From contig JADGKB010000121.1 in NCBI GenBank assembly GCA_027604185.1, forward strand, positions 1 to 37,683: a stretch of 37,683 nt of DNA, given 5' to 3'. This stretch comes from Boothiomyces macroporosus. Its lineage: Eukaryota; Chytridiomycota; Chytridiomycetes; Rhizophydiales; Terramycetaceae. Both the position numbers and the translations under genes were made by a program. Positions 1,441-37,200 of the stretch are shown here, piece after piece. The notes under the pieces are model-generated. The model searched no databases. It was given only the letters and a program-made list of their open reading frames with translations, and had not been told where the DNA came from. Within the stretch, counting starts at the first letter, position 1; every line of letters begins with the position of its first letter.

Positions 1441-3585
1441 ATGTTGTTCAATGCAGCAGCACTATTGACCTTTACAGCAGCGGCAACTGTGCCACTTGTA
1501 GATGTTGACCCAAGTTCACTCTATATCAATGATTTAGGCTCTAATTATATTAGAGTAAGGCTTACCAAACAACCGGTAGCAAATACCAACGTGTATTTCT
1601 CTGCTAGTGCTCTAGTATTTGGTCAATGTTCAACAACGTTTACTCCACAGAACTGGAATCAATACCAAAGCATCCCTGTTCGAGGTGTTCCTCAATTCGC
1701 TAATATGGCAAACCAAACATATACCGTCAAAGCCAGATCGTTTGGTTTCACTGGCTATTCCAATGCCAACAGTAAAGCCCCAACAGTATACCCAAAAATT
1801 GATAGCACCTTTACTATTACTAGAAAAGTAAGTCCTGGTGGGTTGTGTTCATCTACTGGTGATCCTCACTTTAACACTTTCGACAATCAGCTATTCTCAA
1901 GACAAACTGGAGCAGTTACAAGACTCTTCCAAAACCAAGACTTGGAGGTTCAAGCTTGGCAAGTCTTGTGTAGAAAGGGTGGTATCTATTGTAACCAAGC
2001 AGTTGCAGTTAGATATGGGTCGTCAGTCTTTGTTATTGATAACAGACAAAATATTACCGAATCGATGCAAATGAAGCAATTGACCAACAATGTTGATGGT
2101 GTCATTTATCAAGCGCCAGCCAACCTTTATTCTGGTACGCACAACCTCTATATTCCAGATGGATCCAAGGTGTCTATTTCAAACACTGTCTACAACAAAG
2201 GTCTTCCAGATATCCACCAATATATGGGTGTTCAACTAACAGTTCCTGCTCAATCTGGTGCATACAACGGTGTATGTAACAGAATTTCTACCACCAAATT
2301 GCCATCATTCTACTTGCAAGATGGGACTACTGTCAGTGCTACTGCCGCTAATGTCAATTATTTTGTTGATAGCTGTGCAGTTGTTAGCGAAAAGAATATC
2401 TTTAACGGAAATTTCAAAACTACTACTCCAGCTTGGCGAAAAGCATTTACCTGCGCTCTTCCAGGAACAGATACCTTACCAGTTGTGCCAACCCCACCGA
2501 CTTTGCCTTCTTACGTTCAAGTTGCAGTTCCTCCAATGTACGACAATACTCCAAAGTTCTACCCATCGCCTGATTTCATTATCAAGGCAATTGATTTTTG
2601 CACTTCCGTTTTGAACACTTCTACCTGTGTTCATGTATTAGATCCTTCGCCATACATCAAAGGGTGTGCAAACGACGCATCTCTAACAGGAACGCAAGGA
2701 TTAGCTGAGCACCACAAACAAGCCTATTTGCAAGATTGCTACTCTGTTACCAACAACTTGCAAGCAGTATCGGATTCCGATAAAGTAAACAAAGCAGTTC
2801 AAGTTCAAGATTCATTGGGTCTAGGTAAAGAGTGATTTATATTAGGCGATTCTCACTGTCCAAATAACTGCAACAAAGTCGGTACTTGTACTGCCATTGG
2901 TTGTGATTGTGGCCAATCTGGATTTACTGGTGTTGCATGTGAAATTCAAATCAAGAATTTTGCACCAGTTGCTTACACTTCAAGTTCAGCAGCTTCATCT
3001 TCTAGCCGAGTCACTAGCTCATCGACTACCAAAATAGCTTCTTCAGTAGCTCCATCGACTACCAAAGTAACTTTATCGGCTGCTGCCTCCACAGGAAAAG
3101 CTGTGTCTACATCTGAAGCAGTTTACATTCAGGCAACAACCACCGTAGCCTATAAAACCAGCTCAGCTGCCTCCACGCCTACTACCTCTTCCCCTGCCAA
3201 TAATGCAAATTCAAAAGCTGCTGGTCAAGAAAAATCAAATAATGCTCAAGAAAAATCAAGCAATGCTCCTGCATCTGCATCATCAAGTTCATCTCATCAA
3301 TCGGCAGCAACTCCATCGCTTTCAGGATATCATACTTTTTCCTCTGAAGGCGGATTTGAAAAGACTACGTCTCAGGCATCCCATGCTGCCCCTTCTCAAC
3401 CCCCTAACGATGCTGATCAGCAAGCTGCTCATATTCTAACTTTGGCTGCATATGAAAATTCAGTATTGGCAGCAATAGCAGCTACAGCAAAAGGAGCGGT
3501 CCCAACCCCTCCAGCATTTATTCCTACCCGTCCAATCAGATATCCACAATGCAAGGCTCAACAGAAACTATCGGTGTTCCATTAA
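1441..3585 (+). CDS. Secreted VWD-domain plus EGF-like protein with Ser/Thr-rich tail
   Basis: An extracellular protein of 707 residues from exons 1441-2824 and 2846-3585, joined across a 21-nt intron (2825-2845) that restores the frame exactly. I start at the ATG at 1441 because it opens a signal peptide (MLFNAAALLTFTAAA); an upstream in-frame ATG at 1255 would put charged sequence first. Residues about 20-130 look like a beta-rich domain. Residues 138-144 (STGDPHF) followed by NTFDN are the classic start of a von Willebrand factor D domain, which runs to about residue 310. After the intron a compact Cys pattern (CPNNCNKVGTCTAIGCDCG) is EGF-like. The rest is low-complexity Ser/Thr/Ala/Gln, the kind of stalk that is O-glycosylated. 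There is no clear GPI signal or membrane helix. A role in adhesion or cell-wall binding is inferred. It lies between the two transporter copies. Confidence 0.85.
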
Positions 3586-3589
3586 TAAA
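3584..3589 (+). promoter_or_regulatory. AATAAA overlapping the stop of the VWD gene
   Basis: The TAA stop at 3583-3585 provides the first two A's of an AATAAA hexamer. This is one of seven such overlaps in the window. Confidence 0.6.
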
Positions 3590-5744: not shown

Positions 5745-5896
5745 ATCTATAGACTTGCTTAAATAAATTCTAGTATACATAATTTTGCCAAGGTCGTCTC
5801 TTAGGCTTCCACCTTCATTTAATCATGGTAACCATGCCTGCGAGTGCCAAGCTGTTCACGATAGTTGAAAAATACAAGAGAGCATTACTACTACTA

Positions 5897-5902
5897 TTTA
5901 TT
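5897..5902 (-). promoter_or_regulatory. AATAAA overlapping the CDC45 stop
   Basis: On the minus strand the TAA stop (5903-5901) runs directly into TAAATA, so the hexamer AATAAA starts inside the stop codon. Confidence 0.6.
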
Positions 5903-7908
5903 AAACTGTTAATTGCAAGTTCTCTAAAAATGTCCCTAAATCATCTTTACCAACTTTGATACAACTACTATCAAAGAAATCTATAGTAATTTCAATACCA
6001 GTCTTGTTTGCCGCATCAATGAACGCCAAACCAAATAAACTATTGTTAATTTAGAGTACTTTTTGCGTGATGGTTCTCTGCCTAGCACGAGGTATGTGTC
6101 CGTTTGCTCATCTAAAGCAGCTATCACAAACGGTAGATTTTTTTGTCGATGTTCCTGTATTAGTATAGAGTACTTTGTAAGCTTCAATAATGAATGTTGA
6201 TAGTCGGTACAGTAATGGAATGCTCTTGCCAAACAAGTGCAATTGCTCGCCATCTCCGTAACCACTCTTTAATACACAAAACTGGAAATGCTTCAGTGTC
6301 TGTACTCGTTTTTTTAACAACAAACTAGATCCAGTAGATACAAGTATCTTTTGGTAATGAATAGACAGTAGGATACCGTGTAGAATAATGTGTGGAGAAG
6401 TTAATGCGTCATAAGCCAAATAAAAGTTTTTCAACCATGGTTTTCTGGTATCCAGGTCACTTGATTCTAATTTCTGTTTAATTTCAGAAATGATTTCTCC
6501 TGCTACTGTTTTTGTGCCGATACCTGCGCCAACTAGCCCACCTTCGCTCATTGTACTAGTATCCTGATACTTGTGCAAATTATCGTTTGTGGTGGATGAA
6601 GTCAAATTCTCGTATCCACTTAATGAATGGTTATCTAAAAACGATGTTCCGCAATCTAACAATGCAGTAAGAGAATAAACGGTATCAGTTGCGGATAGTG
6701 TAGTAATATAACCGTATTTACGTTGAAAAGATGGAAATAGTATATCAGGCAAGTTGTAGTGCGGAGCAATTTCTTCCAGTTTCTCTTTGAGTAATGACTT
6801 GAAGGATACAGACATTTCTTTGTAGAATTGCTTGCTCTCTTTTTGGGGAAAGCCCATCTTTACTAGCAAATTTACTAGTCTCTCTCTTCCTTTTTCTTTC
6901 CAAATACCAAATCTAGTTCCTACATATGTAGAGTGAAATAGAGAGTCGTATAAATTCCAGTGTTTGAGTAGCATTAGTTGCATTTCTTCAATAAATTCTA
7001 TAGAGTAGTCATCTGTCTTTGATTCAGCAGCAATTGTTAAGCGATCTACTTGAATCTTTAGATCAGCAGCATAATGAGTGTATTGTACAGTTGATAATTT
7101 GCCATAAATGTAATTATTTGTTGTACTCGTAATAGTATGCCTGTATTAGATATAGTTACCATAGAAAGTTTGTATTTTCCCTTCCTAATTGAACAGAGAG
7201 TTCAAATAACAAGTAGCAAATTGGAGTTCCATAAAATGTTCCTTCATTATAGTAATTGTTAATCAGCTGCTTGTATTCCCTCTTGATTCGTTTCTTTGAG
7301 TTATTTGTATCACCAAGACTTTTACGTTTCTTTTTGGGATGCTCACTTTCCTCATTCCTATCCGCGTTTTCCTTTTCATCTTCTTCCGGCTCGCTTTGGT
7401 TTTCCTCGCTTTCACTTTCCTCGCTTTCGTTTTCCTCGCTTTCATCATCAGACGCGTACTTTGTAAACAAAAGGGTACCTGGATCGTTTCGTACGCTTCC
7501 TTTAGCTCATTATAATGCTCTATTGGCTCTTCATCAATTATTACAATATGATTTCCTCCAAACAAGTTGTGTAGATTCATTGGTCTGTGGGAATCCAGTA
7601 TATAAACCAAAGAGTCATTAATCTGCAAGTATTCTTGTAAGTTGACCATGATCCCAACGTTTAAACAAATAATGACTGGATAAGAATCTTCCAGTTTCAA
7701 ATCAGAGTAACAAGAAATGGGTAGAAATTGGTAGGATATCAGATCTTGTTTCAGTAGTTCCTTGTTAACTTGTACTTACCACTAGTATTTTGAGTGCGCA
7801 TAGAGAATCTACATCAGAGTGGACCAGGATCATTACGGTTCCTTTCCCAACTTTTCTCTTTAATTCTTGGTATACATCAATGAAAAATTGCTTGATTTGA
7901 AATCCCAT
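5901..7908 (-). CDS. CDC45: CDC45, replication initiation factor (CMG helicase subunit)
   Basis: A nuclear protein that joins Mcm2-7 and GINS to form the replicative helicase. Six exons (7908-7780, 7760-7479, 7458-7160, 7140-6174, 6154-6060, 6039-5901) give 636 residues, within the usual range (human about 566, yeast 650). The five introns are 19, 20, 19, 19 and 20 nt and each restores the frame into recognisable CDC45 sequence. Support comes from the DHH-like N-terminus (ILVHSDVDSLCALKIL), the motif DSHRP, the long acidic linker after exon 2 (SDDESEENESEESESEEN and following Lys-rich NLS-like part), LLKHWNLYDSL followed by ARF-type sequence, SATDTVYSLTALLD, and the C-terminal NLPFVIAAL with FGLAFIDAA. 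It is convergent with transporter copy 2; about 150 bases separate the stops. Confidence 0.95.
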
Positions 7909-8070
7909 AAGATTGGAAAACTTTCGGACAAGGAGAATTACAATAAGGGTTTCAAAGTTGAAAAAGTTTCATTAGAGATCCGAGATTCAGAGTAATAATT
8001 GATCCGTAAAACCGTATAATTAATGATTGAAGCCAGCCAATAGATATATTACTTATAATTACTTTTATAT

Positions 8071-9543: not shown

Positions 9544-11453
9544 ATGACAAAGAGAGATCTAGAGGAGGAAAGCAGCGATGACGACTTTGGACCAAAGCCA
9601 GCTGGAGAAGAAGAAGACCAAGTGGGTCCTCTGCCAGTAGAAATCAAGAAGCGCAGAGGTATTCAATTATTAATCCAAGTGGATCATGAAGAATTATACC
9701 TCTCTAATTTGCCAAACACCGATTCATATGAAGTATCATTGATGCACAGGGATACAGTGATTCTCGTATTTATTACAAAAACTGATTTCTTGATTACCTG
9801 CTCTGTAGATGGGCATGTAAAGTTTTGGAAAAAAACAGAAAAGGGGATCGAATTCGTCAAGCATTTCAGAGCGCATTTAGGATTAATTACAAGCGGAACT
9901 GTTAGTTTTGACGGGTTACTATTCTGCAGTTGCTCGATTGACAAGACTTTGAAAATCTTTGATGTTGTCAATTTTGATATGATTAATATGATCAAGACAG
10001 AGTATATTCCAAATACCAGTTGTTTTGCATATCAAAAGGGTCAAGCAGTGTCATTATTAGCTGTAACTGGAAAGGAAGACAATCTCATTTACTTTTATGA
10101 TGGTAAAACTTCTCAAGATGTGATTAGAACAATTTCTGTCTTTCAAACTACTTCAATAATACTGTATAACCCAGTATATGATGTAGTACTGGGGTGCGAT
10201 GATCGTGGATTAATCGAATACTTTTCTTTGGATCTAGATTCAGAGACTGGCTTCAAGAAACCAGATAATTTAAAGTGGAAATTAAAATCAGACACAGACT
10301 TGTACGAATTCAAAAAGCAGAGACTAGCACCTACTTCAATCGTATTTTCAAATGATTACAAAATGTTTTCAGTCTGGGAGTTTAAATCAAGAATCCTTCG
10401 AATTTTCAATTTTGAAACTGGTAAAATTATCAAAAAAATCGATGAATCTCTTCAGCTTATTTCTGAAAAACAACAAGAATCTGAAGACCGAATGGATGAT
10501 ATGGAGTTTGGAAGAAGACTGGCTTTGGAAAGAGAATTCGAAAAGCCTGGCCAAGGGCAAACGTGCAATTCATGTTTTGATGAAACAAATACTTTTATCA
10601 TTTACCCTACCATGTTTGGAATCAAGATGGTTAATTTAAAAAATGATAATACCGTATTAATTGGTAAATATGGTTTAACTATAGGTAAATCAGAAACCAT
10701 TAGGTTCATGAATATTTGTTTATACCAAGGACAGCCTAAAAAGAAACAATTAGTAACTGTAGAAATGGCTGCCTCTGAAAATACAGTCCTGCGAGAGTCT
10801 GAAGAAACCGATCCAACTATATTCTGTACCTCTTACAAAAAGAATAGATTCTATTCATTTACCAGAAGAGAGCCTGACTCAAGTGCCACTAGAGATATCT
10901 TTAATGAACGTCCGACAAGAGAAGAAGGTATCATCAACCAACAGAATGAAATCCAACAACAGCACGGGACTGAAGCAATGATTCATACATCTTATGGCGA
11001 TATTATTTTAAGACTGTATCCGGAATATGCACCTAAAGCTTGCCAAAACTTTGTCGAATTATCTCAAAAAGGTAACTTGATGCTAATACAGGTTATTACG
11101 ATGGCTGCCATTTCCATAGAGTAATCAAGAATTTCATGATTCAAACGGGAGATCCGCTTAATGATGGTACAGGTGGTGAAAGTATATTCGGAAAAGATTT
11201 TGAAGACGAATTCCATCCATTTATCAGGCATGATAGACCTTATATGGTATCTATGGCCAACTCTGGGCCAAACACAAACGGCAGTCAGTTTTTCATTACT
11301 GTAGCTCCATGCCCATGGTTAGATAACAAGCACTCTATATTCGGTAAAGCAGTCAGTGGACACGATGTTATCCATCGTATAGAAAACGTTGATACTGACA
11401 AGTACGATCGGCCTTGGGAACCTATTAAAATTATTGGCATTGAAATCAGATAA
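9544..11453 (+). CDS. WD40-repeat peptidyl-prolyl isomerase (PPWD1-type cyclophilin)
   Basis: A nuclear, spliceosome-associated cyclophilin of 629 residues (human PPWD1 is 646). Exons 9544-11071 and 11092-11453 are joined over a 20-nt intron (11072-11091), and the join makes [12 protein letters not shown], an exact cyclophilin motif. The real start is the ATG at 9544; an in-frame TTG lies two codons earlier. The N-terminus is acidic ([13 protein letters not shown]). WD40 repeats occupy roughly residues 60-330 ([16 protein letters not shown], then [16 protein letters not shown]). The isomerase domain spans about residues 477-629, with catalytic Arg519 in FHRVI, then [19 protein letters not shown] and [10 protein letters not shown]. 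All key residues are present, so it should be active. AATAAA (11452-11457) overlaps the stop. Confidence 0.95.
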
Positions 11454-11457
11454 TAAA
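11452..11457 (+). promoter_or_regulatory. AATAAA overlapping the PPWD1-like stop
   Basis: The TAA stop at 11451-11453 contributes the first two bases of AATAAA. Confidence 0.6.
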
Positions 11458-12094: not shown

Positions 12095-13301
12095 ATGAAT
12101 TTTTTAATCACCTTCTTTCTTTGGTTTGTCCTTGCTGATGAAGAGCTGAAGCCTATCCAACCAGAGCCAGCTAATCTGCGATGGTACCTGCCAATAACTG
12201 GCCAGCCAATACAATATGTTGGAGTGCAAGAAAAGCGAATAATTGTACACACGAATAACTCATTGTTGGCTGTAAATGCTTCCAATGGAGCTTTTTTGTA
12301 CAATTCCACAATCAAGCAAGACTTTAAGCTAGTCAAATTAGCTGAAAAATCCATTCTTACAATCTCTCTCGGTGATTCAGTGTATTTCGGAATGTGGGAT
12401 TTACAGAACGGTAAAGGATACTTGTGGCTGGATTTAAAAGAATCGCTCGTCAATAATGTGGATATCCTGTTGAAGGATTACGTTTATATCCTGTTGAACG
12501 ATAAAATCATTTGCTTGGATCATGGAGAAATCAAGTTTGTTCATCATGGAAAGGGATACGAGTTCCTGGAATACAGACAGGACTTGATGGCGATAGGACA
12601 CCACGCGAATCACCTAGTGTTTACTAAAATTGATGAAGATGGAAAAAAGATTGATGATTTGGATTACCAAGTGCCTATATCCACCAATCCTCAATTCATA
12701 GTACTTGGTGATAACGAATTCTTGCTTTGGATAGATCATAATACACTGTATGGATTGAACATGTACAGCAATGAACTACTAGATTTCCAAGTGTTTGATG
12801 ATATAAAAGACTTTGATAAAATGGAAAAAGAGTTGATTTTGATTGATCAGAAAACAAACAGTGTGATAATCTCACTTCCAGATTTCTATGTCTTGATGCA
12901 TATATTTAATCCACAAGATCCTTATATTGAGTATCATGATCTAGAAAGGAACGGAAAGAGTATCTTTATATTCAGAGATGAAAACAAGGACCGCCCGACA
13001 CTAGGACGCATATACCAACTCCAAGGCGTATATATACTTGATTTACTAGATCCAATGACGGGTACTCTCTATTAACAAAGGTTCCTTATTGCAAAACTAT
13101 TATTTAGAAAACAAGTTTCATGTAAAGATTGAAAAAGGATGGATCAACACGTTTATGGTTGATTTAAACAGCTACGCGTTTAATCTGGTGGTATTCTATA
13201 GCCAGGGAATGTGCAGCTTTAGGATGGAGGATTACATGCTTGACGAGCATGTTTATGAACAAGAGTATCTTCAAATGAAGATGGATCATGATGAACTGTA
13301 A
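12095..13301 (+). CDS. EMC1-propeller-like soluble ER protein ending in HDEL
   Basis: 395 residues from exons 12095-13061 and 13081-13301, with a 19-nt intron (13062-13080). The start at 12095 opens a clean signal peptide (MNFLITFFLWFVLA). An earlier in-frame codon at 12029 is TTG, and the ATG at 12079 is out of frame. The last four residues (392-395) are HDEL, the fungal ER-retrieval signal, so the protein should be retained in the ER lumen. The body is made of beta-rich, PQQ-like blade repeats (RIIVHTNNSLLAVNASNGAFLY; YILLNDKIICLDHGEIKFV). This resembles the luminal propeller of EMC1, the ER membrane complex scaffold, but the EMC1 C-terminal DUF1620 part and membrane anchor are absent. It is either a cut-down EMC1 or an unrelated luminal propeller. 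AATAAA at 13300-13305 overlaps the stop. Confidence 0.7.
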
Positions 13302-14832: not shown

Positions 14833-16100
14833 ATGAATACGATTGCCTTTGGACTAAAACTGTGGAGAAAGACCAAATTTGGAAGAAGGGTATTTGACTC
14901 TGTTGAAACTGCTGCGGTCCTTACTGACGTACTCTTGGAGTACAACGAAATCCCATTCAAAACAAGATTTGAAGATTTCTTTGAAGGCTACAGAGCCAAG
15001 AAGGAAACGATGGTAAGCAAGATTAATTACAGGAAATAGTAAACAAATCCAAAGCTAAGCTGCTGCTTGAAGAAAAGGAACAAAAACTAGTTGCAACTGA
15101 AAAACTGCTCGCGGCTTCGTTGCAAAGGGAAGACGCTTTACATCAAAAGCTAAAGGTAACTGTAACTAACACTAGAAAACAAAAAAAGAGGCTGATGAAC
15201 GCGCTGTTGGTTTGGCTGTCGTCGTATCTAACCAGACAAGTAACATTGATCGATTGTTGCATAAGCATGATAAAATTGTAAAAACTTGTGAACAAGAATA
15301 CAAGGTAAATGGTTTTTAATAAGAATATGAAATCATTTCTTCAGACTGTTACTGATGAAGCCGAACAAGATCGCGAGGTATTTTGTGTTTAACAAGAACA
15401 ATATGCATTTGCTCCACAAAGCTACTGAACAGTTATCTGTAATGAGTGCAATCGCCCAAGGGCTTAGATCCAAGAATATCGAAATTGCCGCAAAGGGCAA
15501 CACCCAATTAAAGGTAATTGTTTTCTAATCAGAACTTGGAACAAAAACTGGTGGAGACAGTGCAGCAACTGTCTGTTGTAACGGCCATTGCAAGTGGTCT
15601 CAAAGAAAAGAACTTGGAGCTTGTGGAAAACCACACAGCTCAAACCGAGGTAAGACTTTGTTAATTATTCCTAGGCGCTCGAAAATACAATAAAAGTCAC
15701 CACCCAGAAATTGTCTGAGGTAACCGCGATGGCAGAGTCCTTGAAGATACAAAACAATGATATTACCGAAAAAAGCAGCGAAAGAGTAAAGGTAATTGTT
15801 TGCTAATCAGACTCTTGAAAATACAGTCGCACAGACTGCAAAACAATTGTCTGAAGCTACTGGCGTTGCTCTGGCACTGTATCAGGAAATCTTGGAGAAA
15901 GAAGAAGGATGGGAAAAGTTGCAAAAACAATATACTTACAAGATAACCTACCTCCACCAACTTCTGAAGGATTTCATCGAAGATTCCGATTCGGGTAGGT
16001 ATTTCTAATATTAGCTACTGATTCGCAGCCGACCAAGGACAAAATGGTTCACCAAGATAGCACTGAGACTATTGCCGAAGTACTCGACCGAGACACATAA
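14833..16100 (+). CDS. Coiled-coil protein built from 39-residue exon repeats
   Basis: A predicted 368-residue, almost wholly helical protein with no signal peptide or membrane helix; function unknown. Nine exons: 14833-15012, 15033-15155, 15176-15304, 15324-15377, 15397-15513, 15533-15649, 15675-15791, 15811-15994, 16015-16100. Introns are 20, 20, 19, 19, 19, 25, 19 and 20 nt. Seven of the eight are in phase 0. Exons 5, 6 and 7 are each exactly 117 nt and encode aligned 39-residue repeats (residues 163-201, 202-240, 241-279) sharing QLSxxxAIAxGL / KLSEVTAMAESL at the same positions. Exon 8 starts as a fourth repeat (TLENTVAQTAKQLSEATGVA) and then diverges. The introns after exons 5 and 7 differ at one base. 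The N-terminus (FGLKLWRKTKFGRR) is basic. A membrane-curving or scaffold helical protein is possible, but no family is recognised. Confidence 0.75.
15397..15810 (+). repeat. Tandem exon-plus-intron repeat units of the coiled-coil gene
   Basis: Three successive units, each a 117-nt exon followed by an ultrashort intron (19, 25 and 19 nt): 15397-15532, 15533-15674 and 15675-15810. A degenerate fourth exon begins at 15811. Coding divergence is high, but the register and exon length are exact. Confidence 0.8.
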
Positions 16101-16263: not shown

Positions 16264-19200
16264 ATGCTTTTGGCACTTTCGTTCCCAATTGTATATGGAT
16301 TGGAGTTTTACGGTTACAATGCCACCATACAATCAGTCCACAAACAGGATGTGTTGATTGCTACTGGGTGTAGATTTGACTCACGAGGTCATTCCGTGGT
16401 TACCGAAACCTGCATTGAAAAGTGTTTGGATACACCTGGATGTACGGCAATATCCTATATCTCCACCAACTGCACCTTATATTCCAAACAGCTTCCGAGT
16501 GAATTGATACAAAGCGAGGGAAATTGCGGATATATAATGGATAGAAATCCCGCATGCCACATTAATACAAACGTAGAGTGCTATAAAAGGAACAAGATCC
16601 AATTTACGTTTAATTCAAAGTGCTTGATATTCAAAAATGAACAGTTTCTAGTCGATGATTGCTCGGATGCTGCCCAATGGGAATTTCAATTCAAGGATTT
16701 CTTGTTCAACATTAGACTAGCAGGAACGGATTTATGCATACGCAACGATTTTATATTAGCTTTGGACAAGTGCGGGGATCCTAGTTGGATACTAACAGTA
16801 CGAGGCAATAATTATGCGATTCAAAACTTTGCTAGTCAGTGTATTGGATCCAGTGGACAAATATCCTTTGTTTGCTACAAGTCAGAGTTCATTGTTATTG
16901 ATGGGATCATTGATGATGCTCGGTTTAAAGGAGTCAGTTTATTGGCTACAGACAGCATTGCGATGGGTCCTTGCACATTTTACTTTTTGGAATTCAATGG
17001 ATGGGATGTTATGCCTGAAGGGTGTATTCAAAAGTGTATCGAAAAGAGTATTTAGAATTAACTGAAAGATTGTACTGCAATATCATGGGGAACTTCTTAC
17101 TGTTATTTGGGGATGGGTAACCTTGACGAGTATTACTTTATCCCAACGAATGGAAAATCAGATACTTTTTGCGGGTAAGATTTTGAGGGCTTAGATAGAT
17201 TTTATTACAAGGACAAGTGTGCATTGAAGAATGGGAATATCGACTGTAATAGAATAGACAGTCACGTTCCAGTAGAATATGCATACCACCAAATGATCGT
17301 ACAAAATGATTTTATATACTCATACTGTCGAATTCAAGGGGAGCCCTACAAAAAATTGAAACTGGGTGGAGAGGAATGTGTAAAGAGTTGTAAAGCTGAC
17401 CCACTTTGTACGGCGGTATCTATTAGTGATTGGGATGTATGTCTTCTTTACAGCTCATCTATCTATTATTATACGATTGAGTTCATGAGTGATGATTTGT
17501 ATTCGCCATTCATGTGCGGCTTCTTTTTATCTCGCCAATCAATATGTCATATAAACGAAAATATAGTAGCTTGCGATTCGTAACTAAACAACCGTTAACT
17601 ATAGTGATTTTTCGTTGAACTACCTCAGTTTTGAAATGTATAAGGTTGACGACTATGTAACCACCTCCAACTGCATGATTTATGGTGATTCATTTCAGAA
17701 TTCTACTGATACAGATTGTTTGCGACGATGCCATGATAATTTGGGGTGTCGCTCTTTTACGTATCATGGTTCTACATGTTACTTGTTTGAATGGAGACTG
17801 GAGTACTATAGTATACTAAATCAACAGAACGCGCTGTGCGGGTACTAATTTCTCACTCAGGTTTATAATTTCAAGAAATCCAGAATGTATCAGAGTAGAA
17901 CACGAGTATTATTGCCCTCCTATTCAGCATATAGGGCCTCCATCGTAAGTTTCGATTAACTAGAATATCATATGAAATCAATAATGTTTCTTTTGTGCAA
18001 TCCACTGCTCCCGATACTTTTAGCAGCAATTGCTTCATACCTGAGCAGATTGCTCCTCTCAAAAATGTCCCCTCTGATTGCCCCGAATCTTGTTTCAATA
18101 ACCCTTGTAATTTCGATTAATTTAGTGTGCACAGGGTTTGTGTTTATTAGTTATGTTTGCTATCTGTATTACGTCCCAATTCCATATATAACAATTAAAC
18201 CATTACCACCGAACGTAACCATGGATCTTCCAGGGGACAAATTCAATTGTGGGTAAGCATTGTTTAAAAAGGTTTGTCCCAGATAGAAATGTTTGCACTG
18301 ATGAATCTGCATGCAGAGAAATCCTCCATTCCAAACCTGAATTGCCGAATAGCACAATATACAATGGTGTCTTTTTCGAACAGACAATTATCCCTCAATT
18401 TTCAAAGATATTGGACGTATGGATTGGAAAGTTCGATTTTATATACTCAAATCAGACAGTCTACACTGGAAACTGTTCATTAGAGGGTACTCGAATACAA
18501 GCATTCCAGAGTAACCAAACTAACTGTCTAAATACTGCAGTTCAAAATAGTAGAAAGTTATTAACGTAGATTTAAAGTATTTCATGTATGAAAACAATGA
18601 ATGCAGCATTTTCAACACGTTTAAAGTAAAAGCGGGCAATAGCACCTGTGGGTAAAGAGGGGTTAATGTTAGATTGGTGTACCAGAATGCTGACTGCTAC
18701 TTTAATTCGACGTTAGAATGCTTTGAGCTACCCCCTAACAAACTAATTAGTTTGAACGATATCAACTTCAACATGACAGAATATGAGGATATAAGGTTCC
18801 TCGACAAATGCAGGTTCTATTCTTATTCCAACAAAATATTCCATTTTTTGAAAATGAAGGAATGTGCTAAACTATGTTCATCAATGGAGACTTGCTTTTC
18901 CTTTTCATGGGCACCGTGGGGAGAATGCTATACGTATAGTTACGATATGAGTCTAACAATTGTTGGGCCAGATAATGCAAATTGGACATGTGGATATATA
19001 GAATCTCGAAATGGATGTGAACTGAATAATGGGGCCATTAGTTGCCACACACTTGTAACGAATACAAGTACTACTATCTCGAGTATTAACGGCTGGACGC
19101 CGTTATCAGTGGCAACATCTATTGCATCGGAAACATCAATGGTTATCACTGCATCCAAAGAATTTACTCCCCCAGAAACACCTATCATTTCCCCAAACTC

Positions 19201-23174: not shown

Positions 23175-23866
23175 GAATCATATCCAATAATCCATCAAAC
23201 AACCCAACCGAATACAAAATCGCGCAAGTAACAATAACAATCACCGCCAAAACAACCCAAATCCAGACCATCCATTTGCTTTGTTTCTTGATTTCTACTC
23301 TACTCTCAACATCAAGCAATGGTTGTTCTTCAGCAACAGTGTCATTCGAATCTTGTCGAACAATCTTTGGCTGACAAAACTGTTGAAACTCTTCGACTAA
23401 ATCTGGTCTGGCTTTCAATAACTTTGTTACTAATCCAGTAACCTGTTGTTAATGCGATATTACGGTATCCGCATCCAACTGTCCCCGTTGGAAATCTCTA
23501 AACAAAGTAAGGAATTGGTCATATACAGCTGGGTTATCCTTGTAAGCTACTTTAATCTACATTAGGAATATTCACCTTGTTGACAAACGCTATAGCAGAT
23601 CCGAATTGCGTAGGAGGAGCAGTCTGTACTTGCGGTTGTGAAATCATACATTCTTCAAACTGAACTAGGAGGTGCGGATAATCTTTTAATAATATCGATA
23701 CTTTTTCATGTACAGTTTGTGAATCGATATTTTTCTTTTTAAAAGTCGACAAGATCGAGTGGAACTCTTTGTTAATCTCTGGTGTGGTTTGCGTCCTGAT
23801 TTGATCTAGGAGCGAATAAGCTCTGACTGAATATGAACCGATGGATGTCTCACTTTGTCTGTCCAT
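23170..23866 (-). CDS. Membrane-anchored protein with two PAH (Sin3-type) repeats
   Basis: 218 residues from exons 23866-23576, 23556-23464 and 23442-23170, with 19-nt and 21-nt introns (23557-23575, 23443-23463). Residues 16-74 form a paired amphipathic helix repeat: YSLLDQIRTQ, EFHSILSTFK, VSILLKDYPHLLVQFEECM. Residues 90-152 form a second one (AIAFVNKIK, YDQFLTLFRDFQRG, VTKLLKARPDLVEEFQQFC), and both introns fall inside it. These match Sin3 PAH1 and PAH2, the docking sites for repressors. The nuclear HDAC-interaction domains of Sin3 are missing. Instead, residues 185-208 form one strongly hydrophobic helix (WMVWIWVVLAVIVIVTCAIL) ten residues from the end, so the repeats should face the cytosol from a membrane. 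Function is unknown. It may tether PAH-binding transcription factors outside the nucleus. It is divergent with the SDR gene, 339 bases away. Confidence 0.85.
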
Positions 23867-24205: not shown

Positions 24206-24969
24206 ATGGCAAAGGTAGCAGTCATCACAGGTATCTAAAACTAATATCAGGAGCCTCATCCGGATTCGGAAAGCAATTATCAGTTCGTTTGGTAGATCGT
24301 GGGTACAATGTTGTAATCTCTGACATGAACGACAAGGCAGGAAAAGAGCTTGAATCCTTGTTGAACAAGAAACGACCTAATAGCGCCTACTATTTGCACT
24401 GCGATGTTACTAAAAAGCAAGATCAAGAAGCATTGATTAAGCAAGCAGTTCAAAAATACGGTAAATTGGATGTCATGGTAAACAATGCTGGTATTGGAGA
24501 AAACATTGAATTTACAAAGAATGTAGCTGATAACTGGGTTAAAGTGATGGATATTGATCTTACTGCTGTCATTTTGGGAACCAGATTGGCAATTGATCAA
24601 TTCAGAAAGCAAAAATCTGGTGGTGTAGTGGTTAGCACTGCATCACTAGCTGGGCTATACCCAGTCCCGCAACAACCAGTATACGCTGCCGCTAAAGCCG
24701 GAGTAGTAAACTTTACCAAATCATTTGCTCACTTTAAAAAAGAAAACATTAGGGTAAACTGCGTGTGCCCAGGGTTCGTAAAGACTGGAATAACATCCGG
24801 CAATGCCCAAGAAATTATGGGGATTAAGGAGTGGATCCCAATTGAAAAGGTTATTGATGCATTTGTACTTGGAATTGAAGACGAGTCTTTGGGAGGTGAT
24901 GTTATTCGTATTACTACTCAATACGGTATTGACTTGCCATTCAACAAGAAATACAAATCAAGACTTTAA
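24206..24969 (+). CDS. Short-chain dehydrogenase similar to 15-hydroxyprostaglandin dehydrogenase
   Basis: A 247-residue NAD-dependent classical SDR. Exon 1 (24206-24230) codes only for MAKVAVIT, and exon 2 (24251-24969) continues after a 20-nt intron (24231-24250). The join creates the cofactor motif TGASSGFG (residues 8-15), which fixes both the start and the intron. An ATG upstream in another context would not give this. NNAG (86-89), Ser140, Tyr153 and Lys157 complete the catalytic set. The segments SLAGLYPVPQQPVYAAAKAG and CPGFVKTGI, and a C-terminus with GIEDESLGGDVIRIT, follow animal 15-PGDH closely. The substrate is therefore likely a hydroxy-fatty acid or oxylipin, or another secondary alcohol; this is inferred from family. 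AATAAA at 24968-24973 overlaps the stop. Confidence 0.92.
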
Positions 24970-25510: not shown

Positions 25511-26484
25511 ATGGGATTGCTGACTGTAGGACAATATCTAGACGGAAGTCCGTTGGATTACCTAAGTTATACTAATGGAATAGATATATTTGCCCTGTTT
25601 ATTAACTTGTCATACCTACTTGCCAATATAGTTCTGATGATTCAAATAGCGAGAGGATGGTTACATATCCCGCCTTCAAAGATATTAAATCTCGCATGGT
25701 ATATGAATGGTTTGTTATTTATATATTTAATTACAATGATACTACGGTATTCATGGTTCAGTTTCCCCTTGTTGTGCTGGATATATTCAGTTATTGGAGC
25801 AGTTGGAGTATGCACAGTAATCGTTGGGTAAAATTCACTAATTCAGACAAATGGAAATACTGAAAGCGTTTACAACCAATTCAAAATTTCTTACGGTGGA
25901 AAGAATACAATATGCACAGAAAGGGTATGTTGTGTTCAATATCGTCACCGTGGGAGGATTGTACTGCACTGTAGGGTACATAGGCTATCCCCGACCACTT
26001 GTTCTATCGGCAGTATTCATCATTAACCTAGTGGCACTCTTATGGATACATTTTGTTTATGGTTGTGACACTCTTGTACGAAACGTAATAGTTGCTAATG
26101 CAGATTCCATGCGATCTATGTGAGTACAAGTGTTATTTATCACATCAAGGAACGAAAAAGAATGAATTTATCAAACTCTACTAAAAACAACGAAGAAGAT
26201 TTGGCTTTCAATCAGATTTACTATGTAGTCAATATCGACATTATACTGAACTGGATCGCCGTTGTAGTATGGGTTATTAGCTTCTTTAACGCGAATGTAG
26301 CTACTCCATTTGGGTACTATTAAACTGATTTAGAATAATTGGCTCTGTAATTGGGTATGGGCACATTATGTTTGTTACTGTGGTATTTAAACTGTTAAGG
26401 CAAGTGAATATGAAGAAGGCATATAATGGAACTACGGAAATGAAATCTGCCTCGAATGTTCAGCAAACTGTAATAAAAGGGTGA
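25511..26484 (+). CDS. Seven-helix membrane protein of unknown class
   Basis: 297 residues from exons 25511-25827, 25847-26119, 26161-26313 and 26334-26484. Introns 1 and 3 are 19 and 20 nt. Intron 2 (26120-26160) needs 41 nt to keep the frame and is the least certain. Hydrophobic segments are three in exon 1 (IFALFINLSYLLANIVLM; LLFIYLITMI; WIYSVIGAVGVCTVIV), two in exon 2 (VVFNIVTVGGLYCTVGYI; LVLSAVFIINLVALLWIHF), one in exon 3 (IILNWIAVVVWVISFF) and one in exon 4 (GYGHIMFVTVVFKLL). Seven helices with a short polar C-tail suggest a receptor or receptor-like protein of the plasma membrane. It is not obviously homologous to the pair at 31555-33788. An AATAAA at 26472-26477 falls just before the TGA stop. 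Confidence 0.65.
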
Positions 26485-28785: not shown

Positions 28786-30569
28786 ATGTCCAAGGAAGCC
28801 ACGGTGTTCATTATTGATATCGGACCTTCAATGCCAAAGCGAGACCAGGCGGTTCAGATAGTCTCCAAGCTATTAATCAATAAAATGCAATCGAATCGCA
28901 AGGGAGATCAAGTCGGTATTCTCTTGGTTGGTGCAGAGACTTGCAACCGAGTGAATCAAGATGGTTATTAATACTAAACTAGATGAAGGATATGAGAATG
29001 TACTTGAAGTGAATTTTAAACTGGAAGATCCAGTCATCCTGTCTCCTGCTAACATAAAAATGGTTCAATTTATACAGCAAGCGAAACCAACTGAAGATGG
29101 AGATATTATGGATGTAACCTCAATTAACAAAGGCGCTGATTGTCGCGGTGCAAATGATTGCCAAACATACTGTATCTGAAAAGACTGGGAAACCGTTGAA
29201 ATACGATAAAAAGATTTACATTTTTACCAATGGAAACGGTCCTATCGATCAGGATGGATCGGAATTAGTTACAGGCAAACTGGATGAAGAGCAGATTAAA
29301 CTGTCGGTGTGTGGATTTGATTTCCAAGGAGAAGATAACCAAAACTTTTTAATGTCCCTTGCAGCGAGGAAGGATGAATCACTAGGTGCCTGTTATTAAC
29401 CACAGGTAATAGCAATTTTATCTAGGCATGTATTTTGAGGCACAGGATGCGTTGGATTTGATCAACCAGCAAACCACAAAGCAAGTTAAACCAACAACTA
29501 CCTTTCGAGGCAACTTGACACTGGGCGATCCAGAGAATATAGATACTTCCTTGAGAATACCAATATGGATTTACAACAAGACTAGTGTCCTCACACTACC
29601 AACAGCAAAGAAACAATCCAAGCCTGGCGTTGAGTTGGGCGGTGGTAAGATTGAAATTATCTCTTCACCAAAGTTGGTTAAAGAAGAAAAAGATGAAGAA
29701 ATGGAAAGAATCAAGTCATTTAGATATGGCAAACACCTCATTCCATTTATTGCAGAAGACGAAGAAAGCGCTCAACTAGAGACTGAAAAATCATTATCCA
29801 TCATTACATTTGTACCAAAGGAAAAGATAAAGAGAGAATATTACATGGGCAATGTATTGGCTGTAATTAAAGATCCTACATCTAAAAGTGTCCAATTAGA
29901 TTCAATAGTAGAAGCGTGTAAATTAAACAATGTAGTTGGAATAGCAAGATATGTAAGAACAGATAAAGCTGCAGTGAAAATGTGTGCATTGATACCAAAC
30001 CGAAAAGGCTATTTCTACATGATTCAACTTCCGTACCAAAACGACATTTATCATTTCCACTTCAGTACTTTACCAACTCCAAAGAAAGATTTGTCAATTG
30101 AACAGGCTTTAGACGAATTTATTAATTCCAATGAACAGTCACTTATGCCAAAGGAAATATTCAACCCAGTGTATCAACAAATGATAGAGTCTATAGTAAA
30201 TAGAGCAATGGGCAAACCATTACCTGAAATACAACCAATGTTTGATTATAAATTGGACGACAAGAAATTGAAGCCATTATTCGAAATTACCAAAATTATC
30301 GAGAAACCCAAAGGCAAAATCAAAAACCAGACCAGTGTAAAAGAAATTGTGTTGGATGATTTGGATGATTTATGGTCTGATGATGAAAAGAGTAATGAAT
30401 GGGAAACTGTCAATTGGAAGAAAAAGGAAGAGGACGACTTTGTACTTTTAGAAGCGCAAAAAGTGTTGGGTAAACCGAGCGATGAATTTGTACTGGTAGA
30501 TAAGGTTACTGTAGTTGACTGTAGGATGTTAAAGAAGAGAAGGATTTGCTTGATGATTTGTTTTTCTGA
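28786..30569 (+). CDS. KU80: Ku80, DNA double-strand-break end-binding subunit
   Basis: The partner of Ku70 in non-homologous end joining and telomere maintenance, nuclear. 561 residues (yeast 629, human 732) from exons 28786-28963, 28983-29113, 29133-29385, 29426-30504 and 30525-30569. Introns are 19, 19, 40 and 20 nt. The vWA-like N-terminus EATVFIIDIGPSM fits fungal Ku80. The splice after exon 2 makes MDALIVAVQMI, matching the conserved DALIV segment. FRGNLTLGDP and RIPIWIYNKT open the beta-barrel, and SFRYGKHLIPF, YYMGNVLAVIKDP and VGIARYVRTD follow. The 40-nt intron reads as two adjoining 20-nt introns. The last intron (30505-30524) is preferred over read-through because it ends the protein in an acidic DLLDDLFF, like the Ku80 C-terminal tail. 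Read-through would end at 30576 with a basic tail. Confidence 0.92.
29386..29425 (+). other. Composite 40-nt intron: two abutting 20-nt introns
   Basis: 29386-29405 (GTGCC...CCACAG) and 29406-29425 (GTAAT...ATCTAG) are each complete 20-nt GT-AG introns with no exon base between them. Removing both, or the whole 40 nt, restores the Ku80 frame; removing only one leaves an in-frame stop. Confidence 0.65.
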
Positions 30570-30631
30570 GTATTAGTTCAAATACTTGAGTCAATTTGTG
30601 AAACACCAATATATTTTCTTTGTCTTTTCAG

Positions 30632-31554: not shown

Positions 31555-32664
31555 ATGAGAAACTTTATCGCATACACTATTCCCTCATGTCTATTCGTAG
31601 GATTTGCAATCCATGACTTGTTTTCTTCACTGATACTATTACTGACAAAATACAAAACTGCTGGAAGTACAATTCTTTGGAAAATTGCTTTTATTACGTG
31701 GTTCTTTATATTTTCATTGATTTCATTACAAGTCATGGTTCTTGACTTTTTCGCCAGTCCGTATGTCGCTACCAACATGTACATTGGGTTTATTATTGGG
31801 CTGAATTATTTTATGAACTGGCTGGTTACAGTTGGAATTAGTTTTATGCTGGTGGTTAGGATAAAGCTGTTTTATGGTAAAACATCCACTATTTTCAAAC
31901 TGATGACCATCTATGGAGTGGTAGTGGTATTCCTCAAGCTTGCTGGAAACGGTTTGGGAATGTATGTATGCTACCGTGTTGCTAACGGGCAGTATCTTAT
32001 ACCCAACTTTGATCCACTGTATCCAGTAATTAAATTTTAACTTTAGAGCGTGGCCCTAGCTTTGGCATTTGGGTTGTCGTTTGAAGGAGTCTTTTCAGCA
32101 ATTGGCACAGTGTCTTTCTTGTACTTTTTGACTGGGTTCCAAGGTTTCAAGAGGGATATCATCAAAGACAAAAAGTTTCAATATGAAGCTGCCAGATTGA
32201 CAGTCATTTTTGGCCTTAGTATCCTGGTATCCATTCTCGGGATTTGGCTAGCAATTAATGATAATTGGATTGACCACTCTGCTTACTTTATTCCATCTTG
32301 CATCTATTCATTAGAATTGCTGGCATTCCTGGATCTATCATATAACAATGCCAAGGAAATGCTGGTGTCGTCGAAGGAAAAGAGTGGAAGCAGGAACAGC
32401 AGAACCGGAATTGAAAGCCGACAAAAGTCTACTACCGCAGTGTCCATACAGGGAAAAGATCTTCCCCAGTATGAAAGACAGTTCAAATCCATGGCTTCTA
32501 GTCAGTACTCTGCAAGTCAGAACCCATACTCTCCTGAACAGTCCCAGTTTGCTAATCAATATTCACAAGGTAATACCAGCGAATTCAAGCTAACTTCGAT
32601 GCCTCCGAAACAACAAAAGAAAACCCATACATACGATCCGACAAAAGTCGTCAACTATTTCTAA
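31555..32664 (+). CDS. Seven-helix receptor-like protein, paralog A
   Basis: 362 residues from exons 31555-32025 and 32047-32664, with a 21-nt intron (32026-32046) inside the conserved DPLYP|SVALALAF segment. About seven hydrophobic segments run from residue 8 to about 260, beginning IPSCLFVGFAIHDLF and ending with SAYFIPSCIYSLELLAFLDL. A Lys-rich loop (FKRDIIKDKKF) sits between helices 5 and 6. A Ser/Gln-rich cytoplasmic tail of about 100 residues ends in SMPPKQQ...VVNYF. The layout resembles a G-protein-coupled receptor, but no class motif (DRY, NPxxY) is clear, so the class is unknown. Paralog B follows 84 bases downstream. AATAAA at 32663-32668 overlaps the stop. Confidence 0.75.
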
Positions 32665-32668
32665 TAAA
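32663..32668 (+). promoter_or_regulatory. AATAAA overlapping the stop of 7TM gene A
   Basis: The TAA stop at 32662-32664 begins the hexamer AATAAA. Confidence 0.6.
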
Positions 32669-32747
32669 TCTTGGTCAATGGTCGTGTTTCATCTTGTGGC
32701 CGTTTCCATACAAAAAAATTGTTATACCGCAAAGGGTTTCATAAAAA

Positions 32748-33788: not shown

Positions 33789-34205
33789 ACACTATTCCGA
33801 GGTTTTGCCTATCTATTATTGATTTATAAAAAATAAAAAAGATATTGTTGGTGGATACAGACGGAAAGAGTATTAATCAAGATAGTGCCTATGAATTCTT
33901 GTGATCGGCTTGTTTATCTATTATTTGCATTATTTCGCATAATTTTAGGCTGGTTTCTCTTGTAACGGCCGAGTACATCGGGATTCACTTTTTTGTGGTG
34001 ATGACGCGGATACAAAAGTCATGATCCTTTCCGCGGATGTATTTTGCTAAACGTAAATATCACGTTGGCATACTATTCCTGGCAGTTTTCAATTATTTTT
34101 AATTCAAAATCCGTTTTAATTGAAAAGGACCCGATCCATTCTAACTTCGGCTTTCAACACAAACCCGATATAAAAAGCAAGAAAAATCAAGAGGTTCACT
34201 TCATT
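33789..34205. other. Intergenic region upstream of the ABC transporter
   Basis: About 420 bases, no coding sequence seen. In-frame codons upstream of 34206 are AT-rich and not homologous to transporters. It holds the TATA box at 34169-34176. Confidence 0.5.
34169..34176 (+). promoter_or_regulatory. TATA box of the ABC transporter gene
   Basis: TATAAAAA lies 30-37 bases before the ATG at 34206. Confidence 0.65.
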
Positions 34206-37200
34206 ATGACTGAAAAGGAAAAGATTGACCTTTCAGAAGACACATCTGGTTCAAAGGATATTGCGAAACCAAAGGCAATTCCGTACTGGAAATTGTTCAC
34301 TTATGCAACGACGGTGGAATTACTATTCGATGCATTTGGAGTATTCATGGCTGTCGTTTCTGGCTCCGCACTGCCGTTTACCACAATTATTTTTGGGGAT
34401 TTGGTAGATTCGTTTGCTAAATGGCAAGGTAATTCCTAGTTAATATCAGCACAACCTGCTCCTGGAGTATACATCACTGCTGACCAACTAGCATCGGATG
34501 TCAATGGCAAAATCATTTATTTTATTTATCTTGCAATCATTTCATTTGTAGCTACTTATGCATTCATGGCCACTTTTGTTTATACTTCAGAAGCATCCTG
34601 TCATAGAATCAGAAAAGAGTATTTATTGGCAGTTATGAGACAGGACATTGCCTGGTTTGATACTGTTGGGGCTGGAGAAGTTTCTACTCGTATTACCAAC
34701 GACACTCTGTTGATTCAAGACGGTATTGGTGAAAAACTGCCTTTAGCTTTTGCTTCTGTTGCTACTTTTATTGCTGGATTCTCCATTGCCTTTTACAGAA
34801 GCTGGAAAATGACATTGATGCTGCTATCTGTCATCCCATTCATTGTTGTTTCAGCTGCGATTATGAATATTGCAGCTGGTAGATTCCAAACTAGAATTTC
34901 CGCCCTATACGGAAGTGCAGGGAATATTGCTGAAGAAAGCATCAGTTCCGTTAGAACTGTTGCCTCGTTTAACGGCCAAAAGAAAGTATCTGCTATTTAC
35001 GATGAAAGCTTGGGTGCTGCTAGAAAAGAAGGTATCAAGAAATCATATGTCGTTGGTCTTGGGTTGGGTGTACTAATGTTCTTTTTGTACTTGGCGTACT
35101 CTATTGCCTTTTGGTATGGACATATCTTGTTGAACAATAATGAAATCACTGTTGGTACTGTCGTCAATGTCTTCTTTGCAGTATTGATTGGTGCCTTTTC
35201 TCTAGGCCAACTTGCGCCAGATCTTCAAGCTTTCGCCTTTGGTATTGGTGCTGGAAACAAGATTTTTGAAACTATTGAACGTGTACCACCAATCGACGCT
35301 TACAATGAAGGCGGATTCAAGATTCCAAAAGATACCGTTCAAGGGAAAATTGAACTAAAGGATGTCCAAGTAATTACAAACTAACCCTAGTTTACCTACC
35401 CATCCAGAAAAGAGGTAAAGATTTTGAAAAAGCTTTCTCTTACTGTTTTACCTGGACAAACGGTTGCTTTGGTTGGGCAATCTGGAAGCGGAAAAAGTAC
35501 CATTATCCAATTGCTTGAACGATTCTATGATCCGCAAGCTGGTACAGTTGAACTGGATGGCAAACCGCTAACGGACTTGAACCTTGCTTCTCTCCGTCAA
35601 GTCATCGGTCTAGTATCTCAGGAACCTGTATTGTTTGAAGGTACTGTCGCTGAAAATGTTGCACAGGGGTTAGTGGGATCCAAATTTGAACATGTCACTG
35701 GAGAGGAAAGACTTGCTTTGATTCAAGAAGCTTGCAAACAAGCAAATGCCCATGAATTCATTTTGAACTTGCCTAATGGTTACAATACTCAAGTCGGAGA
35801 AAGAGGTATGCTCTTATCGGGAGGACAAAAACAAAGAGTAGCTATTGCACGTGCTATCATTAAGGATCCAAAGATTCTCTTGTTGGATGAAGCCACTTCT
35901 GCCCTTGATACTACCTCGGAAAGAATTGTGCAAGAAGCTCTTGACAATGTCTCAAAGACTCGCACGACTATTGCTATTGCACATAGACTAAGTACAATCA
36001 AAAACGCAGACAAAATCATTGTGATGGTAAGAGGTGAAATTGTGGAACAGGGTAATCATGCTGAACTTTTGGCTACTGGAGGGCTTTACTCTGAATTGGT
36101 TGCAGCTCAAGAATTAGAAACCAGCAAAGCTGCTCAAGTTGCTGAAAAGGAACACCAAGAAGAAGCTTACACTGGATTGAAACCAGCAATCAGTGTTGAA
36201 CACGTCAAAGGAAAAGATATCGAAGAAGGTGAGGAAAAGGAAATGAGCTCGTTCCAAGTGTTGGTCGAAATTATGAAGTTCAATTTGCCAGAGCTGAACT
36301 ATACTATTCTTGGTTTTATTTCTGCTATTGGAACAGGTCTCGTCTATCCATTCTTTGCCTACACGTAATTTACTTTTAATTATAGTTTTGCTTCTATTAT
36401 TGATGCTTTCTCCAAGAAAGGACCTGAATTAGATACTGAAGCTCGCAACTGGGCACTTGCTTTCATTGGCATTGCAATTTGGAACTTGATTTTCAACTTT
36501 GGTCAAAATGCATTCTTTGGTATCACTGCAGAACTACTTACTGAAAGGCTTCGCAAGTTGGTCTTTAAGGCGATCATGCGTCAAGAAATTGCATTCTTTG
36601 ATGAAGAATCACACTCTACTGGAGCTTTGACTTCAAACTTGTCTACTGATGCGCAAAAAGTTCAAGGTGCGTCTGGTTCAACTTTGGGCATGATTCTTCA
36701 AATTCTTGTTAATTTGGTTGGTAGTTTGATTATTTCGTTTACATTTGGATGGAAATTAGCTGCCGTCGCCACTGCTTGCCTACCATTCTTGGTACTCATG
36801 TCGTCTATCCGTATGGCTATTTTCACATACTTTTCAAACAAGAGCAAAGCTGCTTATGAAAGATCTGCTCAAGTTGCGTGTGAATCAGTTGCTGCTATTA
36901 AAACAGTTCAATCATTAACTAGAGAAAAGGCTGTCTACAATAGTTACACTGAACAATTGGTGCAGCCTTTGAGAGATGGATTAAGAAATGCAATTTTCAA
37001 TACTCCTCTATATGCTTTGGCACAAAGTTTCAATTTTGTAATCAATGCTTTGGTCTTTTGGTACGGTGGTCAATTAATCGCATACAATGGATACACAACC
37101 AAACAATTCTTTACTGTTTTCGTGGCTATTATTTTTGGTGCTCAAGGTATTGGTCGTGTGTTTGCATATGCACCAGATTTGGCTCGTGCTAAGGGTTCGG

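Follow-up and report, generated by a model that had tools for sequence, protein, structure and literature searches.

Introns of about 20 nucleotides and predicted head-to-tail intron chains in the chytrid Boothiomyces macroporosus

Can introns of only 19-21 nucleotides (nt) be the rule in a fungal nuclear genome, how would they be removed, and what becomes of longer interruptions? These questions are raised by contig JADGKB010000121.1 of the chytrid Boothiomyces macroporosus (C121 of the 216 contigs in the 15.2-Mb assembly GCA_027604185.1), whose full length of 37,683 nt is called the window here. The best answer from the reading frames and protein comparisons is that its genes carry ordinary U2-type GT-AG introns of about 20 nt, which are very probably removed one by one by an otherwise standard spliceosome. 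Some longer interruptions may be chains of the same units.

Length distribution of the introns

Frame continuity was scanned in the window and in twenty 10-kb stretches (237,683 bases together). A join was counted wherever removal of a GT..AG segment of 8-120 nt unites two coding frames that fail to connect by read-through. No motif or length prior was used, and 12 dinucleotide pairs served as controls. A stricter first threshold for coding frames gave 25 joins, and looser thresholds were then used for the length-excess scan. GT..AG joins clearly outnumber the controls at 19, 20, and 21 nt: the in-frame counts at 19, 20, 21, and 22 nt are 22, 25, 13, and 9 versus control means of 4.3, 4.5, 1.25, and 4.0. 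The other lengths up to 60 nt that exceed the highest control do so narrowly (14 versus 12 at 38 nt, 12 versus 11 at 44 nt, 9 versus 7 at 45 nt, and 13 versus 11 at 57 nt), and bins of 20 nt from 61 to 120 nt hold 158, 127, and 87 joins versus 139, 138, and 110 in the controls.

A second scan demanded a donor and a branch motif, left the branch position free, and took out-of-frame joins as its control. It finds 66 in-frame versus 8 and 6 out-of-frame joins at 19-22 nt, and 28 versus 39 and 36 at 23-60 nt. A gene finder places 289 introns of 19-22 nt in 200 kb. With its length prior centered on 27, 33, 40, or 48 nt it still places 196, 192, 202, or 197 of them, and the four favored lengths themselves gain only 66-85 introns, which serves as an estimate of noise. 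A preliminary description of the window held ultrashort introns to be the rule, and in the sample this stands on the length excess, the ratio of in-frame to out-of-frame joins, and the insensitivity to the prior. The dominant length lies below about 25 nt and the range is narrow, as in an ultrashort-intron class. A density of about one per kb suggests, by extrapolation, some 16,000 ultrashort introns genome-wide, and introns of about 20 nt probably number in the thousands. In-frame candidates of 23-150 nt number 69, of which 28 were inspected over their first 60 letters; some of these start with a complete short intron. These look as if a short exon were flanked by two short introns, and others resemble coding sequence.

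Intron structure

The donor is GTAAT-like, with A at +3 in 84-90% of finder introns and G at +5 in only 8-27%. U12-type introns begin with RTATCCTT, which this donor does not resemble; the GT..AG ends, the 5' site, and a YTRAY-like branch are all of U2 type. Among the 69 joins of 19-22 nt from the prior-free scan, 41 start with GTA and have YTRA(C/T/A) close to their 3' end. In 39 of these 41 the first G and the branch A are 14-15 nt apart, and in 37 the branch A lies 5-6 nt before the intron end. The corresponding counts in the signal-requiring scan are 51 and 49 of 66. The unusual spacing proposed in the preliminary description is borne out by this 5-6-nt distance and by its unusual rigidity.

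The stretch between branch and 3' end is too short to hold a pyrimidine tract, and only about 4-5 nt separate the 5' splice site from the branch motif. U1 and U2 could hardly occupy one such intron together in the usual manner, and the order of spliceosome assembly becomes testable because of this short distance. The introns would have shrunk to little beyond their own signals (a GTAAT-like 5' site, a YTRAY branch, and AG), and the spliceosome would recognize each of them as one unit by intron definition.

Homology across the joints

The cyclophilin joint of PPWD1, a junction on which the preliminary description relied, aligns without gaps to human PPWD1. Identity is 98% between the PPWD1/cyp15 protein after splicing and the predicted protein of Boothiomyces sp. 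JEL0838, which has neither the 20-nt insert nor the stop-free 21-nt insert at 10664-10684 (the comparison is of protein, not DNA). At the latter position human PPWD1 shows a six-residue gap. For the ABCB-like gene, two of three joints are gapless against P-glycoprotein, an alignment that also supports the previously described FTYPSRK junction; the first joint falls where the alignment is variable and has a gap of one residue. Tandem membrane-protein paralogues (31555-33788) align without gaps although only one has a 21-nt insert. The two Pfam-matched exons of Slu7, as called, are 17 nt apart, and in the gene models ultrashort introns interrupt the genes for Slu7, Prp18, SF1, U2AF65, and U2AF35.

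Sequencing or assembly indels, or pseudogenes, might mimic introns through frame breaks, and an argument drawn entirely from reading frames in DNA and from the comparison of proteins is open to this objection. It is nevertheless very improbable, since the inserts are constant in length, run from GT to AG, and have their branch motif at a set position. In addition, the JEL0838 protein is without the same two PPWD1 inserts and the neighboring paralogue is without one. Bypassed or translated segments (a programmed frameshift, or extra residues) would suit the 14 window introns of 21 nt, which preserve the frame and are in some cases stop-free, as at 10664-10684. However, the 19- and 20-nt segments change the reading frame, and homologues have no counterpart of the insert in the alignments; we give this explanation almost no credence.

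Introns placed in the window

The window gene finder was restricted to introns of 18-26 nt; allowing up to 300 nt merged the whole window, and up to 60 nt merged genes. It places 56 introns, some without a branch motif or within weak gene models: 2 of 18 nt, 22 of 19 nt, 13 of 20 nt, 14 of 21 nt, 1 of 22 nt, 2 of 24 nt, and 2 of 25 nt. The 35 introns of 19-21 nt counted in the preliminary description are about right by this measure. Its window set stands for introns of that length and misses in-frame stop-free ones such as 10664-10684. The names CDC45 and SDR are carried over from it, and no family search lies behind CDC45. In the following lines, a+b gives the distance from the first G to the branch A (a) and from the branch A to the intron end (b).

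2825..2845, plus strand: 21-nt intron, gene 1441-3585 (secreted, Ser/Thr-rich by reading); frame joint and gene finder, no YTRAY
6040..6059, minus strand: 20-nt intron, CDC45; gene finder, branch A 14+6
6155..6173, minus strand: 19-nt intron, CDC45; gene finder, 14+5
7141..7159, minus strand: 19-nt intron, CDC45; gene finder, 14+5
7459..7478, minus strand: 20-nt intron, CDC45, lower confidence; gene finder, no YTRAY
7761..7779, minus strand: 19-nt intron, CDC45; gene finder, 15+4
10664..10684, plus strand: 21-nt in-frame stop-free intron, PPWD1; not in the predicted JEL0838 protein, 15+6
11072..11091, plus strand: 20-nt intron, PPWD1/cyp15; gapless to human PPWD1 and JEL0838, 15+5
13062..13080, plus strand: 19-nt intron, gene 12095-13301; gene finder, 14+5
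15013..15032, plus strand: 20-nt intron, gene 14833-16100; gene finder, 14+6
15156..15175, plus strand: 20-nt intron, gene 14833-16100; gene finder, 14+6
15378..15396, plus strand: 19-nt intron, gene 14833-16100; gene finder, 15+4
15514..15532, plus strand: 19-nt intron, gene 14833-16100; gene finder, 15+4
15650..15674, plus strand: 25-nt intron; gene finder, branch motif 10 nt from the end
15792..15810, plus strand: 19-nt intron, gene 14833-16100; gene finder, 15+4
15995..16014, plus strand: 20-nt intron, gene 14833-16100; gene finder, 14+6
17048..17068, plus strand: 21-nt intron, Cys-rich gene 16264-20372; gene finder, 14+7
17945..17963, plus strand: 19-nt intron, Cys-rich gene 16264-20372; gene finder, 15+4
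18107..18125, plus strand: 19-nt intron, Cys-rich gene 16264-20372; gene finder, 14+5
18253..18271, plus strand: 19-nt intron, Cys-rich gene 16264-20372; gene finder, 15+4
18550..18569, plus strand: 20-nt intron, Cys-rich gene 16264-20372; gene finder, 15+5
18652..18672, plus strand: 21-nt intron, Cys-rich gene 16264-20372; gene finder, 15+6
19874..19892, plus strand: 19-nt intron, Cys-rich gene 16264-20372; gene finder, 14+5
23443..23463, minus strand: 21-nt intron; gene finder, 15+6
23557..23575, minus strand: 19-nt intron; gene finder, 14+5
24231..24250, plus strand: 20-nt intron, SDR (TGASSG joint); gene finder, 14+6
25828..25846, plus strand: 19-nt intron; gene finder, 14+5
26013..26031, plus strand: 19-nt intron; gene finder, 14+5
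26085..26103, plus strand: 19-nt intron; gene finder, 14+5
26314..26333, plus strand: 20-nt intron; gene finder, 15+5
28964..28982, plus strand: 19-nt intron, Ku80; gene finder, 14+5, relative P0193 aligns across
29114..29132, plus strand: segment; gene finder, 14+5, P0193 comparison
29386..29405, plus strand: unit 1 of a 20+20-nt tandem pair, Ku80; in-frame chain, one-residue gap to P0193 nearby
29406..29425, plus strand: unit 2 of the tandem pair, Ku80; in-frame chain, weak branch TTTAT
30505..30524, plus strand: 20-nt intron near the end of Ku80; gene finder, 14+6
32026..32046, plus strand: 21-nt intron, membrane-protein gene; paralogue 32748-33788 without it and gapless at the joint, 15+6
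34429..34449, plus strand: 21-nt intron, ABCB-like gene; gene finder, 15+6, joint in a variable alignment stretch
35370..35390, plus strand: 21-nt intron, ABCB-like gene (FTYPSRK joint); gene finder and P-glycoprotein alignment, 15+6
36365..36385, plus strand: 21-nt intron, ABCB-like gene; gene finder and P-glycoprotein alignment, 15+6

A further segment at 9659-9679 is intron-like and is retained in the JEL0838 protein; it was rejected. Several introns of the Cys-rich gene lie, by eye, just past TG(T/C)GG, as if exon-intron modules had been duplicated. A sugar-transporter-like gene (by reading) is present in two copies, 1-1224 and 4521-5744, with 1217 of 1224 bases identical and no intron called.

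Head-to-tail intron chains

The longer introns of the preliminary description stand only in part: at least one, the 40-nt intron of Ku80, looks like a tandem pair of 20+20 nt placed head to tail. A pattern in which the 3' end of one unit is followed directly by a second unit has 20 matches at 19 loci in the 15.2-Mb genome versus none when read backwards. The parser finds an in-frame chain at 13 of these loci and none at the other six (L046, L049, L052, L053, L056, and L058), among which L046, which we take to be ARPC1-like by motif, reads as a single 20-nt intron. Only the chain, and none of its units singly, is open in frame at L013, L042, L044, L045, L047, L050, L055, L057, and L059. The methyltransferase gene at L013, presumably METTL2-like by its motif, would contain three 19-nt introns head to tail.

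Protein comparison spans several of these chains. The chain in Mgm101 (L042) has nine units totaling 179 nt. With it and one upstream 20-nt intron removed, Pfam family PF06420 matches at 114.7 bits, residues 9-94 aligning to profile positions 3-88 (86 on 86), and P0121 aligns gaplessly over 83 residues. The joint left by two units in Rpt1 (L057) is gapless with one gap elsewhere, and that of two units in transportin-1 (L048; E 5e-8) is gapless with gaps elsewhere. Four units in L055 are spanned by a MATH_2 match with some length change (44.1 bits, cut-off 32); the MATH fragment has no match in PDB. Weaker cases are BRE in L045 (26.3 bits, cut-off 25.8), LRR_4 in L044 with the joint at the edge of the match, and Sel1 in L047, where the total exceeds the cut-off and no single stretch passes. 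A two-unit alternative at L047 scored slightly higher but soon reaches a stop. No Pfam match crosses the joint of L013 or occurs at L050 and L059; the Pfam comparison took in the chains other than L043 and L051.

In the sample, three cases of complete units at distance 0 occur, of which the one at L038 is false, versus a mean of 0.15 for distances of 1-60. Over 292 kb, in-frame two-unit chains are found at five loci and out-of-frame ones only at L022, and a three-unit chain is found at L013. Of these, the chains at L013 and Ku80 are credible, as is, by its frame, the candidate at L001. Those at L022 7687-7725, which is open in every frame tested, and on the window minus strand at 14221 are doubtful. 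An apparent tandem pair in U2AF35 (L038 1847-1885) was rejected, since its first half is coding. As a rough figure, chains make up about 1% of introns. The public Ku80 protein P0192 (28786-32664) starts late, at MDALIV, omits 33 residues near the tandem pair, and continues into the membrane-protein gene that follows; the public annotation of this contig is thus broken by ultrashort introns.

If the spliceosome does not readily remove much longer introns, some longer interruptions would have to be chains of complete units. The units would be excised serially in any order, each excision setting the next GT against the exon as though a zero-length exon lay between. The AG|GT boundary would restore a 5' site after the first excision, as in recursive splicing at the level of sequence. 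Tandem duplication of a unit may account at least in part for the chains and would leave the mRNA unchanged. Such growth is suggested by two identical consecutive 19-mers in L045 and by a 20-nt tandem repeat of 5.6 copies in L042 (260-370), whose copies carry splice signals.

Alternatively, the ultrashort introns are real and the spliceosome takes out a whole chain at once, using only the first GT and the last AG, with the internal sites left as relics of recent tandem duplication. The near-identical units of L045 and L042, which show that some chains are young, are compatible with this, as is the narrow surplus at 38 and 57 nt, both multiples of 19. In the other chains, however, adjacent units share only 37% of six core positions (14 pairs, with L043 and L051 still included) yet keep GT, AG, and the YTRA branch except in the second Ku80 unit, although the search favored such units. 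These diverged units support removal unit by unit and do not prove it, since signals were required in the search. There is also no in-frame excess at 23-60 nt when signals are required, and neighboring introns 3 nt apart appear to be removed separately. On balance we regard one-step removal as unlikely.

Several observations nonetheless weigh against the removal of every unit on its own. One-step removal of chains fits the DNA as well. The frame test is weak by itself: compared with the 13 in-frame chains, 9 and 10 of these 19 loci leave a chain joint open out of frame. It barely parts chains from chance, and the chains therefore rest on homology and the pattern count. Removal of a single unit is also open in frame at L043, L048, L051, and L054. 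Homology excludes this one-unit reading at L048, L043 and L051 are ambiguous, and the chain at L054 was rejected. The chain pattern itself demands signals, and their retention is partly built in. A control with a 3-nt spacer was not empty. Finally, longer single introns may exist in light of the 24-25-nt introns and a modest in-frame surplus at 61-150 nt (41 versus 27 and 27, signals required). It is about an even chance that, in practice, the spliceosome has an upper limit near 22-25 nt and that introns grow only by whole units of about 20 nt, forming intron "minisatellites" that are removed one unit at a time, with exons of 0-3 nt between introns excised independently.

Three-base exons

The 3-base spacer pattern, planned as a control for the chains, has 5 matches versus 2 backwards. 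At L060 the three bases encode the Tyr of a pyridoxal-phosphate homeostasis protein (GEN-Y-IQEL), which aligns gaplessly to yeast 1ct5. L061 is AGM1, of which 60 residues align without gaps to the fungal enzyme of known structure (5o9x/4bju). An EF-hand loop is restored at L062, with Pfam matches below the cut-off. L064 probably has a three-base exon as well, and a one-intron reading is also open there; L063 was rejected as a coding look-alike. The micro-exons at L060-L062, and probably at L064, sit between two introns of 19-20 nt. If the proteins are as conserved as they seem, ultrashort introns 3 bases apart would be excised separately in at least two genes, and exons as short as 3 nt would be kept between two units. 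From such exons, zero spacing between introns is a small further step.

Spliceosomal RNAs and proteins

The factor search covered U1, U2, U6, SF1, U2AF65, U2AF35, Slu7, and Prp18. The 5' end of U1, ATACTTACCTG, is canonical in its pairing region, with a score of 68.8 bits slightly below the Rfam cut-off of 69.5. The U2 pairing region, GTGTAGTA, and the ACAGAGA of U6 are canonical as well, as expected for U2-type introns. There are two diverged U2 small nuclear RNA genes (L006 and L007; 142.2 and 135.4 bits), and U6 (L030) has one extra base relative to the Rfam consensus in AUGGC-u-CCCUG. The genome encodes SF1, U2AF35, Slu7, and Prp18. The best U2AF65 match reaches 230.7 bits exon by exon, below the model cut-off of 310.3, and other RRM proteins match weakly. 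The preliminary description proposed a check of U2AF, SF1, U1, and U6 for loss or change, and a loss is not supported: all were found, the cores of U1, U2, and U6 are canonical, and factor loss was rejected as the cause of small introns for every factor searched.

In yeast, Slu7 and Prp18 are dispensable when the branch is close to the 3' site. Both are listed as not found in Stentor (PMC9505925). Their retention here contradicts the simplest prediction from these two observations. A changed spliceosome that lacks late factors, as in Stentor, might still explain the small size, and the branch-to-end distance equals that of the 15-nt Stentor introns, whose branch A is given at position 10 (PMC9505925). 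Yet Slu7, Prp18, SF1, and both U2AF subunits, the proteins covered by the search, are encoded in this genome, and we judge this explanation quite unlikely.

Comparison with known systems

A few protists and relic nuclei are known to have ultrashort introns, and the spliceosome is reduced in at least some of them. Neither ultrashort introns in Boothiomyces or other chytrids nor chains of such introns are reported among the literature matches listed, a set that left subscription papers mostly outside its scope; one large pan-eukaryotic survey omitted introns of <30 bp (PMC10639083). A fungus that encodes all of the splicing factors searched suggests that the minimum intron size can be approached on an otherwise standard machine, and it can be compared with solved yeast and human spliceosome complexes. 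The organism is a natural test of the smallest RNA piece that the splicing machinery handles. Its chains would allow size limits and serial splicing to be assayed in a natural setting, and they would let introns multiply without change to the mRNA.

The nucleomorph introns of Bigelowiella natans are 18-21 nt long. A length of 18 nt is cited for them (PMC12316389), in the same length class as the introns here, but the nucleomorph is a relic endosymbiont nucleus and this is a chytrid nuclear genome. Mikrocytids have introns of 16-17 nt that are likewise numerous, conserved, and very narrow in length range; these are parasites with a highly reduced spliceosome, whereas all factors searched were found here (PMC10245619). 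Stentor coeruleus has introns of 15-16 nt that resemble ours as a dominant ultrashort GT-AG class; the position of the branch hardly varies, the branch A is 5 nt from the end, and U2AF1, U2AF2, and SF1 are listed as found (PMC9505925). It differs in the listed absence of Slu7 and Prp18, both encoded here, and the present introns do not share that Stentor-type trait (PMC9505925). The present case differs further in being a fungus with introns of 19-22 nt, tandem chains, and 3-nt exons.

Recursive splicing is known at Drosophila ratchet sites. Dual-specific AGGT sites, which act as both 3' and 5' site and form a tandem array in UBC, are similar to the chain boundaries predicted here (PMC10809524). 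The stwintrons of Ascomycota are also fungal complex introns that need consecutive splicing, but in them a splice signal of one intron is split by a second intron, whereas the chain units are complete and lie side by side (PMC6616335, PMC8469720, PMC9024468). The AGGT and ratchet systems involve coding repeats or long introns. What appears to be new in B. macroporosus, judged from its sequence, is the head-to-tail chain of ultrashort introns, built of 20-nt units with nothing between them.

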